Shown piece by piece: positions 3,881 through 51,050 of a stretch of 64,000 nt of DNA. The translations under genes were made by a program, and so were the position numbers. The notes below the pieces were generated by a model that saw only the letters and a list, made by a program, of their open reading frames with translations, did no database searches and was not told where the DNA came from. This DNA is from Bacteroidota bacterium (lineage in GTDB: Bacteria; Bacteroidota; Bacteroidia; Flavobacteriales_E; Vicingaceae). Position 1 is the first letter of the stretch, and each line of letters opens with the position of its first letter. The stretch is from contig JABFGJ010000005.1 of the NCBI GenBank assembly GCA_013112545.1, positions 124,001 to 188,000 on the forward strand, in the 5' to 3' direction.

Positions 3881-5041
3881 TTACAACGTCCCCCTTTGTT
3901 CTTGCTCTCTTTCTATGGATTCAAACAAAGCTTTGAAGTTTCCTGCTCCAAAACCTCTAGCACCCATTCGTTGTATGATTTCAAAAAATAAGGTTGGCCT
4001 GTCTTCTAACGGCTTGGTAAATATTTGCAATAAGTATCCTTCCTCGTCTGCATCAATCATAATTCCTAAACTCATCAACGTTTTGATGTCTTCTTGCAAT
4101 TCATGACTAAATTCTTCTAATCGACCTGGAACCGCTTTGTAATATTCATCTGGGGGAGTTGACAAAAACTCTATCCCTCTGCTTCTTAAATCACTTACAG
4201 TTTTTATTATGTCGTCAGTAGCAACAGCAATGTGCTGAACACCAGGGCCTTCATAAAAGTCTAAGTATTCTTCAATTTGTGATTTCTTTTTCCCCTCAGC
4301 AGGCTCGTTTATTGGAAACTTAATTCTACCGTTTCCGTTACTCATTACCTTACTCATCAACGCGGAGTATTCCGTATGAATTTGCTTGTCGTCAAAGGAT
4401 AAGAAGTTTACAAATCCCATTACATCTTCATACCATTTTACCCAAATATTCATTTCATTCCAGCCTACATTACCTACCATGTGATCGATGTATTTTAAGC
4501 CAGTTGGTGCTGGATTATAGTCTGACTCCCATTTTCTAAATCCTGGCAAAAATTGTCCCTTGTAGTTTTTGCGTTCTACAAATAGGTGAACAGTTTCTCC
4601 ATAAGTATAAATGCCCGATCTTACCACTTCTCCATGTTCATCTTTCTCTACAGTTGGTTCCATGTATGATTTTGCTCCTCTTGAAGTTGTTTCTTCCCAT
4701 GATTTTCTAGCATCTTCAACCCAAAGAGCAATTACTTTTACACCATCGCCATGTTTTACAATGTGGTCGTTAATTGGGCTTTTAGAATTTAAAGGCGTAG
4801 TTAATACCAATCGAATTTTATCTTGTTTTAGCACATAGGATACTTTATCTCTACTCCCAGTCTCTAAGCCTTTGTAGGCATAAGATTGAAACCCAAAAGC
4901 AGTTTTATAAAAATGTGCTGCTTGTTTCGCATTTCCTACGTAAAACTCTACGTAATCTGTTCCTAATAGAGGCAAAAAGTCTTGTGCCCCTTCAAAAATT
5001 TTTTCTAAGCCGTAGTTTACGGATTCCGGTTGTTTTTTCAT
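3881..5041 (-). CDS. hpd: 4-hydroxyphenylpyruvate dioxygenase
   Basis: This non-haem Fe(II) enzyme converts 4-hydroxyphenylpyruvate and O2 to homogentisate and CO2, the second step of tyrosine breakdown. The 386-residue length is normal for the bacterial family. Two vicinal-oxygen-chelate domains are visible (about 22-160 and 182-345). The three predicted iron ligands are His187 (YIDHMVGNV), His270 (GVQHIAVA) and Glu354 (FFEIIQR), and the family's C-terminal GFGAGNFKALFESIE signature is present. It lies 42 bp downstream of the four-helix-bundle gene and in the same direction as hmgA, which encodes the next enzyme. A strong terminator follows. Identity is very secure. Confidence 0.95.
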   Translation of the reverse strand: MKKQPESVNYGLEKIFEGAQDFLPLLGTDYVEFYVGNAKQAAHFYKTAFGFQSYAYKGLETGSRDKVSYVLKQDKIRLVLTTPLNSKSPINDHIVKHGDGVKVIALWVEDARKSWEETTSRGAKSYMEPTVEKDEHGEVVRSGIYTYGETVHLFVERKNYKGQFLPGFRKWESDYNPAPTGLKYIDHMVGNVGWNEMNIWVKWYEDVMGFVNFLSFDDKQIHTEYSALMSKVMSNGNGRIKFPINEPAEGKKKSQIEEYLDFYEGPGVQHIAVATDDIIKTVSDLRSRGIEFLSTPPDEYYKAVPGRLEEFSHELQEDIKTLMSLGIMIDADEEGYLLQIFTKPLEDRPTLFFEIIQRMGARGFGAGNFKALFESIEREQEQRGTL

Positions 5042-5531: not shown

Positions 5532-6689
5532 TTAATGTATCCAACTCTTATAATACTTTCCATCATCAATTTTCATAGCATTTTCCGTAACTTTTAATGG
5601 CTTAAATGTGTCTAACATAACTGCCAGTTCTTGGGTGTCTTTCTGCCCTACACTTCTCTCATAAGCTCCAGGGTGCGGTCCATGAGGAATTCCAGCTTGG
5701 TGCAAAGTAATTTGACCTTGAGCAATATCATTTCGACTCATGAAATCGCCATCAACATAATACAGTACTTCATCAGAATCTATATTGCTATGGTTGTATG
5801 GTGCTGGAATAGCTTGTGGATGATAATCATAAAGACGAGGTACGAATGAACAAATTACAAAACCACCCCCTTCAAACATTTGGTGAACAGTAGGTGGCTG
5901 ATGAACTCTTCCTGTTATTGGTTCAAAATCGTGAATAGAAATAGCATAAGGATAATTTAGCCCATCCCAACCAACAACATCAAACGGATGAGATGCATAT
6001 AAATAATCGTGAATGATGCCTTCTTTCTTAATTTTTATAATAAAATCTCCTAACTCATCATGAGTCTCTAAATCTTTTGGTGTTCTTATGTCTCTTTCGC
6101 AATAAGGCGAATGTTCTAATAGTTGGCCAAACCAATTTCGGTAACGCTTGGGTGTGTAAACAGGACTATACGATTCAATTACCAAGTGTCTATTGTCTTC
6201 CGAATCGAATTCCATTTGATAAATCATTCCTCTAGGAATAACCAAGTAATCGCCATATTTGAAATCGATATTACCAAGCATTGTTCTCAACTTACCACTG
6301 CCTTTGTGAATAAAAATCACTTCATCGGCGTCAGTATTTTTATAGAAATAAGCTTTCATTGATTTTTTAGGTGCAGCTAAGCCCATAAGTACATCTGAGT
6401 TGCACAACATCACTTCTCGCGACTCTAAATAATCATCCGTTGGTTTTACATCAAAACCAATTAATCTTCGAGATTTAAAATTTTTCTCTACTGCTATTTT
6501 GGGTCTAACGTCTTTAGAGCCTAAGTATTCTTTAACCATCGTTGGCCGATGAGTATGATACAGCAATGTTGACATCCCATCGAAACCAACCGTTCCAAAT
6601 AGTTGTTCGTAATACAAAGAGCCATCTGCTTTTTTAAACGTGATGTGTCTTTTGTTTGGAATCTTTCCTAAAGTTCTATAAAATGGCAT
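5532..6689 (-). CDS. hmgA: Homogentisate 1,2-dioxygenase
   Basis: The 385-residue cupin-fold enzyme opens the aromatic ring of homogentisate with O2 to give maleylacetoacetate. Visible family features are the central cupin (DEVIFIHKGSGKL, around residues 123-135), the later His-rich iron region with the motif QAGIPHGPHPGAYE near residue 340, and DEVLYYVDGDF around 305. It is slightly shorter than the human and Pseudomonas enzymes, as is usual for Bacteroidota homologues. It is the first gene of the leftward set hmgA, four-helix-bundle gene, hpd. Fumarylacetoacetase, which would complete the route, is not in the window. Confidence 0.93.
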   Translation of the reverse strand: MPFYRTLGKIPNKRHITFKKADGSLYYEQLFGTVGFDGMSTLLYHTHRPTMVKEYLGSKDVRPKIAVEKNFKSRRLIGFDVKPTDDYLESREVMLCNSDVLMGLAAPKKSMKAYFYKNTDADEVIFIHKGSGKLRTMLGNIDFKYGDYLVIPRGMIYQMEFDSEDNRHLVIESYSPVYTPKRYRNWFGQLLEHSPYCERDIRTPKDLETHDELGDFIIKIKKEGIIHDYLYASHPFDVVGWDGLNYPYAISIHDFEPITGRVHQPPTVHQMFEGGGFVICSFVPRLYDYHPQAIPAPYNHSNIDSDEVLYYVDGDFMSRNDIAQGQITLHQAGIPHGPHPGAYERSVGQKDTQELAVMLDTFKPLKVTENAMKIDDGKYYKSWIH

Positions 6690-6747: not shown

Positions 6748-7779
6748 TTAGATTTCATTCAATTTTGGTCTTAGTCTGCTTTTATAAACAGCATGTGCAT
6801 CTGTTTTTAATTTCCCTTTTCTAATTTTTCGTTGTTCTTCAATTGGCAAATTAGCAATTTCTTGACACCCTGGGGTGCAAGCTCCATCATATTTTTCATT
6901 ACATGTTTCACACTGGATAAACAACAAGTGGCAGTCGTCGTTAGAGCAATTGGTGTGGTCGTCACACAAGTTTCCACATTGATGACATTTGCTAATTATT
7001 TCATCAGAAATACGCTCTCCTAGCCGCTCATCGAAAACAAAGTTTTTTCCAATAAATTTATTCTCTAAATTCTCCGCTTTTATTTGCCTTACATAATCAA
7101 TGATTCCACCATATAATTGATTGACATCGGCATAACCCTTATGTTTTAAATACGCACTGGCCTTTTCACAGCGAATTCCTCCTGTGCAATACAACAACAC
7201 CTTTTTGTCTTCCTTGCCTTTCAAAATTTCTTCCACTTGAGGTAATTCTTCACGAAAAGTATCTGCATCAGGACAAATAGCCTTTTCAAAATGACCTATC
7301 TCACTTTCGTAATGGTTTCTCATGTCTATAACAATAGCGTTTGGGTTTTGAAGCGCTTCATTAAACTCTTTAGCCGTTAAGTGTTTTCCAACATTGGTAA
7401 CATCAAAAGTGCCGTCGTCTAAACCATCGGCAACGATCTTATATCGCACTTTAACTTTTAGCTTATAAAACGATTTGCCATCGTCTTCAACCGCAATTTT
7501 AAAAGGTATTTCCTTGAAGTAGTCTCGAACATAAAGTTTTTCAACAAATTCATCCCAATTGTGCTCAGGCACACTCATTTGTGCATTTACTCCTTCTCGA
7601 GCCAAATAGGTTCGGCCAAACACATTTAACTCAGACCATTCTTTATAAAGCTCATTTCTAAGTTCATTTGGGTTATCAATAATTACATATCTATAAAAGG
7701 AAACAGTGATTCTTTTGAAATCCTCCAACATGAGTTTTTCTTTCAAAATGCGCTTGTCGTATTTATTGTACAATTCCAT
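6748..7779 (-). CDS. trhO: tRNA uridine(34) hydroxylase, rhodanese family
   Basis: The 343-residue protein matches the YceA/TrhO family, which uses O2 to hydroxylate the wobble uridine of certain tRNAs to 5-hydroxyuridine. An N-terminal acylphosphatase-like domain (about 20-125; [10 protein letters not shown]) is followed by a rhodanese domain (about 135-235) with the catalytic loop [11 protein letters not shown], and by a Cys-rich tail (CHQCG, CSNDDCH, CETC) likely to bind metal. The ATG at 7777-7779 is well placed. A -7 element (7802-7809) and an FNR-like box (7834-7845) lie upstream, suggesting oxygen-dependent control of an O2-using enzyme. The 58-bp gap to hmgA leaves shared transcription open. 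Confidence 0.9.
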
Positions 7780-7801
7780 AAGGCCATTATTAAGGAGCTT
7801 A

Positions 7802-7809
7802 CAAAGTTA
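7802..7809 (-). promoter_or_regulatory. -7 element of the trhO promoter
   Basis: The minus strand reads TAACTTTG, an exact match to TAnnTTTG, 22 bp before the trhO ATG. The FNR-like box centre lies 30.5 bp upstream of its first base, the spacing expected for class II activation by Crp/Fnr proteins. Confidence 0.5.
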
Positions 7810-7833
7810 CGCAAAGCTAGATTGTAGTAAAAA

Positions 7834-7845
7834 TGATAAATGTCA
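7834..7845 (-). promoter_or_regulatory. FNR-like operator upstream of trhO
   Basis: The plus strand reads TGATAAATGTCA; its complement, TGACATTTATCA, is identical to the site before ccoS (50805-50816) and differs only in the two centre bases from the site before ccoI (48306-48317). It fits the FNR box TGAT-N4-ATCA with one mismatch. Confidence 0.55.
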
Positions 7846-8124: not shown

Positions 8125-8796
8125 TTACTGCTTCACAAATTTCTGCCGCCAACTTCCATCTTTACCAATAATATTCAACAAGTAAATTCCACTGGACAAG
8201 CTCTCTACATTCAACTGCCTATTAGTTTCGGTATAAGCTTTAACTAATCGACCCTTTACGTCCCTGACCTCTATTCTTTCGATAGCCAAAGACATAAAGC
8301 CATCAATATTTAGTTTATCACCCACGGGATTAGGATATAGGCTAAAATTAGACTTGAAATTTTCTAAAATAGAAGTTACTCCGGATTGAACCAATAGTTG
8401 CAAAGTATCTGAATCATAACGCGAATAAAAATTATTGGATCCTCCAGTTGTATCCAAAGCACTCCAAAATACTATTACCTCGTGTACTCCAGTAGATTGA
8501 AATTTATTAGTTGAAATTATTGTATCAAATCTGGTACAAGCACTACCCGGACTTCGAATACCACTTATATCAATGGTAATATCATAAATCAATTCTTGTT
8601 GTCCAATGGTATCGGATGAGGAAACAAATGAACCGCAAAAAAAAGGAGGGTTTCCAACACTAAATAAAAAGCTTGTTGAAAGGTATAGCGTTAATTCATC
8701 ACCTTGTTTAGGATTAGATGGTGAAAAAGTCTGAATATGTTGAGCCATACTAACTAAGCTCAGTATTATAAATAGGAAAAACAATCTATATCTCAT
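8125..8796 (-). CDS. Secreted protein with T9SS sorting domain
   Basis: The product has 223 residues from the ATG at 8794-8796 (a GTG one codon earlier is an alternative). It has a signal peptide (LFFLFIILSLVSMAQ), a central beta-rich region of about 120 residues with several Cys and no recognised enzyme motif, and a C-terminal T9SS sorting domain (about 145-223) with LYPNPVGDKL, VRDVKGRLV and SSGIYLLNI. It should cross the outer membrane by the type IX system. It starts a few bases after the stop of the subtilisin-like gene and so probably shares its transcript; a partner or inhibitor role is possible but has no direct support. Confidence 0.75.
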   Translation of the reverse strand: MRYRLFFLFIILSLVSMAQHIQTFSPSNPKQGDELTLYLSTSFLFSVGNPPFFCGSFVSSSDTIGQQELIYDITIDISGIRSPGSACTRFDTIISTNKFQSTGVHEVIVFWSALDTTGGSNNFYSRYDSDTLQLLVQSGVTSILENFKSNFSLYPNPVGDKLNIDGFMSLAIERIEVRDVKGRLVKAYTETNRQLNVESLSSGIYLLNIIGKDGSWRQKFVKQ

Positions 8797-8802
8797 CACA
8801 AA

Positions 8803-47579: not shown

Positions 47580-48287
47580 TTATTCCAATCGATTTGCTAA
47601 CATTGCTAAACCGTGGATATCGAGCAATTTAATTCTTTTGCCATCTAAAGATATTAGCTTTTCTTTTTTTAATTCTCCAATTAAGCGGATTACTGCTTCT
47701 GTAGCTGTACCAACTAGATTTGCAATTTCTTCTCGACTTAATTTGACATTAATGCAGTTTTCTTCATCCAAGCCAAATGTTTCTTTTAACCACAAAAGCA
47801 TTTCGGCAAGCCTTTGTTTAGTTGTTTTCTGAGCCATATCCGTAATCAAACGGGAGGCTTCATTCCAATTTTTGGCTGTTAATTCTAACATTTTCAAACT
47901 AAAGTTTGGGTCAGATTTTATAAGCCCAAAAAAATCATTCGCTGGAACAAAACAAACTATTGAACCTTCTAAAGCTACAGCAGTGCTACTCAGTTTGCTT
48001 TTACTCAACATCGAGTTGTAGCCCATGATATCGCCATCTTTAGCAAAGCGAATAATTTGTTCTTTGCCGCTTGGACCCATTTTGCTTAATTTGATTTTTC
48101 CTTTCTTTACACAAAACAAACCTCTAGCAAAACCACCTTCTTTAAAAATCGTTTCCCCTTTTTCATAAAAGTCACTGCTTTTATGGTTATCTATGTTTTC
48201 AAGTTGATCGGATTGCAAATCACAAAAAACAGATTTATTCCATGAGCTACAATTAAGACAAGAAATCGAATGAATTTTTTTACTCAT
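47580..48287 (-). CDS. FNR-type Crp/Fnr regulator
   Basis: The 235-residue protein has a cyclic-nucleotide-binding fold (about 20-140; EKGETIFKEGGFARGLFCV), a dimer helix and a winged helix-turn-helix (about 165-225; LSREEIANLVGTATEAVIRLIGEL). Cys10, Cys13 and Cys22 at the N-terminus and Cys112 (EGSIVCFVP) correspond in position to the four [4Fe-4S] ligands of E. coli FNR (Cys20, 23, 29, 122), so it probably senses oxygen. The recognition helix keeps the Glu and Arg that read the FNR half-site. It is divergent from ccoI; an FNR-like box (48306-48317) lies between them and overlaps its own -7-like sequence, suggesting autoregulation. Confidence 0.88.
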   Translation of the reverse strand: MSKKIHSISCLNCSSWNKSVFCDLQSDQLENIDNHKSSDFYEKGETIFKEGGFARGLFCVKKGKIKLSKMGPSGKEQIIRFAKDGDIMGYNSMLSKSKLSSTAVALEGSIVCFVPANDFFGLIKSDPNFSLKMLELTAKNWNEASRLITDMAQKTTKQRLAEMLLWLKETFGLDEENCINVKLSREEIANLVGTATEAVIRLIGELKKEKLISLDGKRIKLLDIHGLAMLANRLE

Positions 48288-48305: not shown

Positions 48306-48317
48306 TGACAAATATCA
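48306..48317. promoter_or_regulatory. FNR-like operator between fnr-type gene and ccoI
   Basis: TGACAAATATCA fits the FNR box TGAT-N4-ATCA with one mismatch. It is centred 29.5 bp before a -7-like AAATTTTG (48341-48348) of ccoI. In the other direction it overlaps GATATTTG (48309-48316), a -7-like sequence for the FNR-type gene. Confidence 0.6.
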
Positions 48318-50804: not shown

Positions 50805-50816
50805 TGACATTTATCA
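50805..50816. promoter_or_regulatory. FNR-like operator upstream of ccoS
   Basis: TGACATTTATCA is identical to the complement of the site before trhO and differs from the ccoI site only in the two centre bases. It is centred 29.5 bp before the -7 element at 50840-50847, the same distance as at ccoI. Confidence 0.6.
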
Positions 50817-50861: not shown

Positions 50862-51050
50862 ATGGGCGTACTCATTATTTTAATAATTGCAAGCTTCGTT
50901 GTTGCACTTGGTTTTCTTGTGGCTTTTATTTGGTCGGTAAAATCAGGACAATACGACGATTCTTATACTCCATCGGTTAGAATGCTATTTGACGAAAAAG
51001 GAAACACAACAAACACTAAAAACGATAAAAACAATACGAATGAACAATAA
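50862..51050 (+). CDS. ccoS: Cbb3 oxidase maturation protein CcoS
   Basis: The 62-residue protein has one N-terminal membrane helix (IILIIASFVVALGFLVAFIW) and the family's short cytoplasmic motif SVKSGQYDD, ending in a polar Asn-rich tail. CcoS is needed for insertion of haem and copper into the oxidase. Its end overlaps the ccoNO start by 11 bp, so they are translationally coupled. It is the first gene of the main structural operon, with its own promoter and FNR-like box. Confidence 0.9.
   Translation: MGVLIILIIASFVVALGFLVAFIWSVKSGQYDDSYTPSVRMLFDEKGNTTNTKNDKNNTNEQ

Follow-up and report, generated by a model that had tools for sequence, protein, structure and literature searches.

An FNR-type box upstream of trhO in Vicingaceae and other Bacteroidota, at a predicted class II promoter position

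The closest described relatives of the promoter considered here are the class II promoters of cbb3 oxidase genes that are governed by FNR, FixK or Anr, in which a TGA-N6-TCA core lies at about -42 and the regulator is encoded beside the oxidase genes. The FNR consensus itself is TTGAT-N4-ATCAA. In a genome of the Bacteroidota family Vicingaceae, the gene for the tRNA hydroxylase TrhO is preceded by a box with the same core at about the same position, and here too an FNR-like regulator is encoded beside the oxidase genes. The box departs from the FNR consensus in lacking the outer T/A (C before, T after), and the promoter differs from those of the described cbb3 genes in its Bacteroidota -7 element and in having a tRNA hydroxylase as its target. 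Promoters of this kind are known; trhO would be new among their targets.

The hemF enzyme is O2-dependent. Expression of hemF in Pseudomonas is lower in an anr mutant and the gene has an Anr box, so that an FNR-type box before the gene of an O2-dependent enzyme has a parallel, although in that case the pathway is haem synthesis, the phylum is another and the box is common to the divergent qor (PMC6588701). An O2-consuming hydroxylase gene under FNR control is likewise described in Salmonella, where lpxO is governed by Fnr and ArcA, but the control there is anaerobic repression and the substrate is lipid A rather than tRNA (PMC6002686). In Escherichia coli, trhO (yceA) is itself reported to be activated by an Fe–S regulator, IscR, whose site overlaps the -35 region (PMC8561392). 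Control of trhO by an Fe–S regulator, predicted here, would resemble the E. coli case; the protein family and the site are different, and type II IscR promoters are regulated mainly in air, with a sign opposite to that of FNR. A YceA gene of Flavobacterium psychrophilum is listed under an ECF-type promoter motif (PMC9723704). The preliminary description of this DNA knew of no earlier account tying tRNA modification to the oxidase programme through an oxygen regulator. Searches of open-licence full texts turned up no account of trhO being controlled by FNR or FixK, but the published IscR activation in E. coli qualifies the novelty.

The trhO promoter and the boxes of the cbb3 locus

The window is a 64,000-nucleotide stretch of contig JABFGJ010000005.1. 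The trhO promoter region contains the following features.

6748-7779, minus strand: trhO, oxygen-dependent tRNA uridine(34) hydroxylase, 343 aa; NF001133 263 bits (cut-off 170), CTGGIR present
7802-7809, minus strand: -7 element TAACTTTG, of the form TAnnTTTG, 5' of trhO
7830-7833, minus strand: TTTT immediately 3' of the box, at the place expected for the -33 element
7834-7845, minus strand: FNR-type box TGACATTTATCA upstream of trhO, predicted centre about -42.5, kept in relatives

The preliminary description had read the complement of 7834-7845 as a 12-mer identical, base for base, to a site before ccoS and lying 30.5 bp before an exact TAnnTTTG, with trhO as the downstream gene. The letters and coordinates are confirmed, as are the second copy of the 12-mer, 42,971 bases away, the -7 element and the identity of the gene. 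The box contains the TGA-N6-TCA palindrome; its centre (7839.5) is 30.5 from the first base of the -7 element (7809), with 24 bases between the box and TAACTTTG. If the -7 element spans -12 to -5, the position given for F. psychrophilum in PMC9723704, transcription is predicted to start near 7797. The box centre is then predicted at -42.5 for a gap of 24 bases and at -41.5 for a gap of 23, against a class II reference of -41.5, the start itself being a prediction. The -33 element has the consensus TTTG; the TTTT found behind the trhO box recurs in 11 of 12 aligned near genomes, with an information content of 2.0, 2.0, 1.59 and 2.0 at its four positions. A divergent gene as the target of the box was considered and rejected, the next ORF upstream (8125-8799) being on the same strand. 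A scan for sigma-70 promoters, designed for another promoter type, was also discarded, its result being at shuffle level.

The cbb3 locus lies further along the same window.

47580-48287, minus strand: FNR-like regulator beside ccoI, with C10, C13, C22 and C112; the likeliest binder of the box
48306-48317, no strand assigned: box TGACAAATATCA between fnr and ccoI, kept in near relatives
50805-50816, plus strand: box TGACATTTATCA before the FixS/CcoS ORF at 50862-51050

Six TGAYNNNNRTCA sites occur in the window, three of them inside long ORFs. Of the three intergenic ones, one precedes trhO, one separates fnr from ccoI and one precedes ccoS; the distance from box to TTTG is 28 bases at trhO and 27 bases at ccoI and ccoS. 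The trhO box matches those of the cbb3 locus, and the TTTG spacing agrees to within a base, but the full TAnnTTTG is found at trhO only, ccoI and ccoS being without the TA. Boxes were looked for at 30 ccoI loci. Ten genomes, the own genome (G000) among them, have an fnr with full-length identity of 65% or more, and the fnr–ccoI box is present in every one (a partial match in G025 and a broken gene in G021 were set aside in forming this set); it reads TGACAAATATCA in nine of them and TGATAAATATCA in G007. A box on the ccoS side is present in some genomes, and in G000 and G014 it is TGACATTTATCA.

Conservation within the family and beyond

Within the family we considered 46 genomes, 26 of them with trhO, and read the upstream regions of all 26 (for G036 locus L216 was used, L012 being at a contig edge). 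G059, whose upstream region is masked, was dropped from the analysis. The full arrangement was defined as TGAYN4RTCA, a gap of 22-25 and TAnnTTTG, and the looser one as TGAN6TCA, a gap of 22-25 and nnnnTTTG. The full arrangement precedes trhO in 15 of the 26 genomes and the looser one in 16. As a control, among the 44 window ORFs of at least 120 aa the full pattern is met once, at trhO itself, and the looser one twice, at trhO and ccoI; among 51 other ORFs in trhO loci the full pattern is met once, before the hmgA-like gene of G040. Twelve of the 16 genomes of the near clade have the box, G026 among them without an exact -7 element and G036 with the looser form; G011, in the same clade, has a copy with the first base changed. 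No trhO box was found in the upstream regions read from genus g10 (G009, G019, G025). The rest of the family has the arrangement in 5 of 10 genomes (G012, G022, G060, G065, G066), and it was not found in the trhO upstream regions of G015, G017, G062, G063 and G068.

We aligned the promoters of 12 near genomes on the box and the -7 element, with the changed copy of G011 included and G030, a near-copy of G021, left out. The rows were chosen for TGA...TCA and the whole-box mean of 1.65 bits is therefore partly built in, so that only the six inner columns, which took no part in selecting the box, count; these average about 1.36 bits, against 0.33 in the preceding flank. Conservation of the box before trhO in neighbouring genera, which had been proposed as a check, is seen in the majority of close relatives and recurs in a number of separate lineages, but not in genus g10. 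There, two genomes (G009 and G019) keep fnr and the fnr–ccoI box and are without the trhO box, which is the pattern, here in one genus, that the preliminary description had named as speaking against its proposal.

Beyond the family, most other Bacteroidota lack the arrangement. We scanned the regions upstream of 554 ORFs in 80 named trhO loci of this phylum. Six of these regions have the full arrangement, each of them in front of a trhO gene (that of L095, which is a family genome, and those of L111, L118, L119, L120 and L151); it was not found before the other 74 trhO genes. For the looser pattern, eight of nine matches in these loci are trhO. One of 14 class-level genomes outside the family (G049) has the full arrangement. 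A matrix trained on the cco boxes only, applied to the named trhO promoters, gives sites scoring at least 6 at a gap of 23 (four) and of 24 (one); the rest of the range from 5 to 34 is empty, and gaps of 35, 36, 45, 48 and 56 have a single site each. There is no overall shift in score with this matrix (Mann–Whitney p 0.66; 61 trhO promoters against 91 controls) because the box occurs in few of the named lineages; in the upper tail, 5 of 61 trhO promoters against 2 of 91 controls score at least 6 (one of the five belongs to a family genome), and 5 of 61 against none of 91 score at least 8.

A tree of 47 trhO rows was built, with 11 of the 80 named loci in it and G065 left out; L099 and L103 show the looser pattern and were labelled box-less. 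On this tree the presence of the box requires nine changes, at least six of them forced by well-supported branches, and none of 500 shuffles was as low. The box is found on separate branches: the near clade, the distant family clade, a Salibacteraceae-like clade, G049 and Parachryseolinea. Several gains, or an early gain followed by many losses, would fit this distribution.

The TrhP-like gene and the genes downstream of trhO

TrhP is a U32 protein that supports a prephenate-dependent route needing no O2 (PMC6599085). Across the 46 family genomes, 23 have trhO only, 19 have only a U32 gene of about 420 aa, three have both and one has neither, a near-exclusion with a Fisher p of 8.5e-9, uncorrected for relatedness. 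Since most family genomes have either trhO or the TrhP-like gene and rarely both, more TrhO at low O2 would make sense, and most box-bearing species would depend on O2 for this tRNA modification if the role given to the U32 protein holds. The own genome is one of the three with both genes, the others being G017 and G062, so that it may have a second route besides TrhO, and this weakens the argument for this strain. Its U32 protein (G000:C7) has the TrhP model as its best match, at 190 bits against a cut-off of 534, with UbiU next at 164; given the score below cut-off, we call it TrhP-like only, and its role is inferred. No box was found close to the U32 gene in the promoters of the own genome, G003 and G006. 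In G017 and G062 trhO and the U32 match share a strand, with the U32 match about 340 bases or less behind trhO. Genus g10, without the trhO box, is also without the U32 gene.

Two dioxygenase genes follow trhO on its strand.

5532-6689, minus strand: hmgA-like gene (homogentisate 1,2-dioxygenase-like), 58 bases after trhO
3881-5041, minus strand: hppD, 4-hydroxyphenylpyruvate dioxygenase, same strand as trhO

No terminator-like site was found on the trhO strand between 3700 and 8200. The hmgA-like gene is probably co-transcribed with trhO, and the operon may end with hppD. A gene for a protein of the 23S rRNA-intervening-sequence type (PF05635; 5084-5440, minus strand) separates hppD from the hmgA-like gene. 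The hmgA-like protein matches homogentisate dioxygenase weakly (71 bits, cut-off 511), so its substrate is not certain.

Candidate regulators and alternative readings

The FNR-like protein beside ccoI has a cNMP-type domain and a Crp helix-turn-helix (PF00027, PF13545, PF00325), and its best structural hit is a regulator of the Crp/Fnr family, with FNR structures ranking closely behind. Its cysteines C10, C13, C22 and C112 are invariant in an alignment of five proteins (this one, the genome's second FNR and three out of nine close orthologs), and the spacing to the third cluster cysteine differs from that of E. coli FNR. With the NCBIfam Fnr model NF008365 it scores 104.9 bits against a cut-off of 228 and is therefore called FNR-like, outside the modelled subfamily. 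The recognition helix of FNR is E-x-x-S-R; this motif is not found in the protein, which has E197-A-V-I200-R201 and so keeps the E and the R with I in place of S. The replacement would fit the missing outer T/A of the boxes. In two relatives with strong trhO boxes (G002 and G005), the ccoI-linked FNR is the sole hit over the family cut-off with an E-x-x-x-R helix, three weaker hits lying outside that set. We consider it likely that this protein binds the trhO box in the present genome.

We suggest, with moderate confidence from sequence comparison, that the trhO promoter is a class II promoter activated by an FNR-type protein, such that low O2 would lead to more TrhO through the ccoI-linked FNR. 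As O2 falls, the four-cysteine FNR beside ccoI would hold its cluster, bind TGACATTTATCA at about -42 and recruit RNA polymerase to a promoter whose -7 element is good and whose -33 element is poor; ccoI and ccoS would be driven by this FNR as well. TrhO, and probably the hmgA-like enzyme with it, would then become more abundant when the substrate O2 is scarce, in species in most of which no TrhP-like gene was found. The site with its spacing and conservation, the closely similar layout at the cbb3 genes and the near-exclusion of trhO and the TrhP-like gene are observed; we infer which regulator binds, whether it activates or represses, the operon and the gain for the cell. If the ccoI-linked FNR does bind, activation at low O2 is very probable. 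Control of trhO by an oxygen regulator, as originally proposed, is partly supported by a precisely placed and conserved FNR-type site, its likeness to the cbb3 boxes and an FNR-like protein with cluster cysteines at the cbb3 locus, but the box is absent in genus g10 despite the presence of FNR.

Across genomes the box and the FNR do not track each other, as shown by several mismatches in addition to that genus. In G017 the FNR is present and the trhO box is missing. Conversely, the trhO box is kept in G012, G026 and G030, for which no helix-competent regulator was found among the hits read; G026 and G030 are incomplete drafts (91% and 84%), but G012 is 97% complete. In the draft of G021, fnr is broken (one further hit, on C10, is outside those read), and in that of G033 the fnr match contains a stop codon. 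In G021 (L075, L186; G021:C22), fnr and ccoI are broken or fragmentary and the trhO box is intact; this is perhaps a genome losing its cbb3 locus. G011, of genus g12, with its changed first base, is also missing the FNR; a recent loss of FNR in this genus with the box left over is possible, and another regulator is equally possible. A single Crp/FNR type present wherever the box is was sought among the hits read and none was found.

The simplest alternative, that the box is an AT-rich palindrome without a role, draws on the frequency of the word: in the genome of 3.27 Mb the exact 12-mer has two copies and the reversed pattern, used as a control, has three, and the window holds 15 matches at no more than two mismatches against 14.2 expected. 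These counts are at chance level, so the word alone is uninformative and it is position and conservation that carry the case; with a fixed spacing, recurrence across many genomes and few matches at control ORFs, a chance match is extremely unlikely and the trhO box is almost certainly a real regulatory site. A real site of this family could nevertheless be bound by another Crp/FNR member (the second FNR, a receiver–Crp fusion or one of the cysteine-less Crp types), the signal then perhaps being nitrate or NO, a kinase signal or something else other than O2. The own genome does have six HTH_Crp_2 matches, five over cut-off, including the second four-cysteine FNR, which clusters with MoaA, an MFS carrier and a COX1-family protein (L271, G000:C12:50000-63000), and the receiver–Crp fusion, which has an E-x-x-x-R helix and adjoins a PAS histidine kinase (L273, G000:C11:108000-115500). 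We take the latter two to be a FixL/FixK-like pair with the receiver and Crp parts in one protein. The ccoI-linked FNR was not found in box-bearing G012, G022, G026, G030, G060, G065 and G066, several of which are incomplete drafts, and the G065 box, TGATTTAAGTCA, has the flavour of the second FNR's boxes. However, the intergenic boxes of the second FNR read TGATNNAARTCA (TGATATAAGTCA, TGATGTAAATCA, TGATTTAAATCA, TGATTCAAGTCA), from which the own trhO box differs, being that of ccoS, and the G002 and G005 regulator sets described above offer no other helix-competent type over cut-off. We regard binding by another member as rather unlikely.

A repressing site, by which FNR would shut trhO off without O2, has its model in Salmonella lpxO, whose expression falls in anaerobiosis and rises in an fnr mutant (PMC6002686). 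Repression at trhO is nonetheless quite improbable: a box at about -42 by a non-consensus -33 element is the place of a class II activator (PMC8561392 for the class II position), and the box spacing differs by no more than a base from that of ccoI and ccoS, for which induction at low O2 is expected. In F. psychrophilum, cbb3 is induced by O2 limitation (PMC9723704). It is also conceivable, and compatible with FNR activation, that the true target is the hmgA-like gene and that trhO is merely first in the operon. In 14 of the 16 near genomes trhO is followed by hmgA in the same orientation, and of 20 upstream regions of lone hmgA genes that were read, a part of the family's total, those of G003, G016 and G028, all of one genus, have the full arrangement. 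G006 has it 174 bases upstream of hmgA, perhaps inside the previous gene; G015 has it before hmgA with one base of the -7 element changed; a second hmgA-like gene in G036 has the box with a looser -7 element; and the G040 box sits between trhO and hmgA. Set against this, the trhO box is present in four genomes of the distant trhO clade (G022, G066, G012, G060) with hmgA on another contig, and around L111, L118-L120 and L151 with no hmgA found in the available flanks, whereas G009, G019 and G025 have the linked pair without a box and 15 of the 20 lone hmgA genes have none at the right distance. Several lone hmgA genes have a strict box about 160-190 bases upstream with no -7 element at the right distance, and these boxes are probably coding sequence of the preceding gene. 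hmgA as the true target is thus improbable, and the dioxygenase link is a side line, not a rule.

Returning to activation by the ccoI-linked FNR, a broader reading can be put forward tentatively, at somewhat less than even expectation: that in Bacteroidota reliant on TrhO rather than on an O2-independent tRNA hydroxylase, trhO has come more than once under the FNR of the high-affinity oxidase, joined here and there by the tyrosine-degrading dioxygenases, such that O2-consuming enzymes rise as O2 falls and wobble decoding is sustained at low oxygen. If true, tRNA decoding capacity in a group that has received little study would be tied to the programme by which respiration senses oxygen, and the near-exclusion of trhO and the TrhP-like gene would provide natural contrasts for asking why an O2-dependent enzyme should be raised when O2 is scarce.
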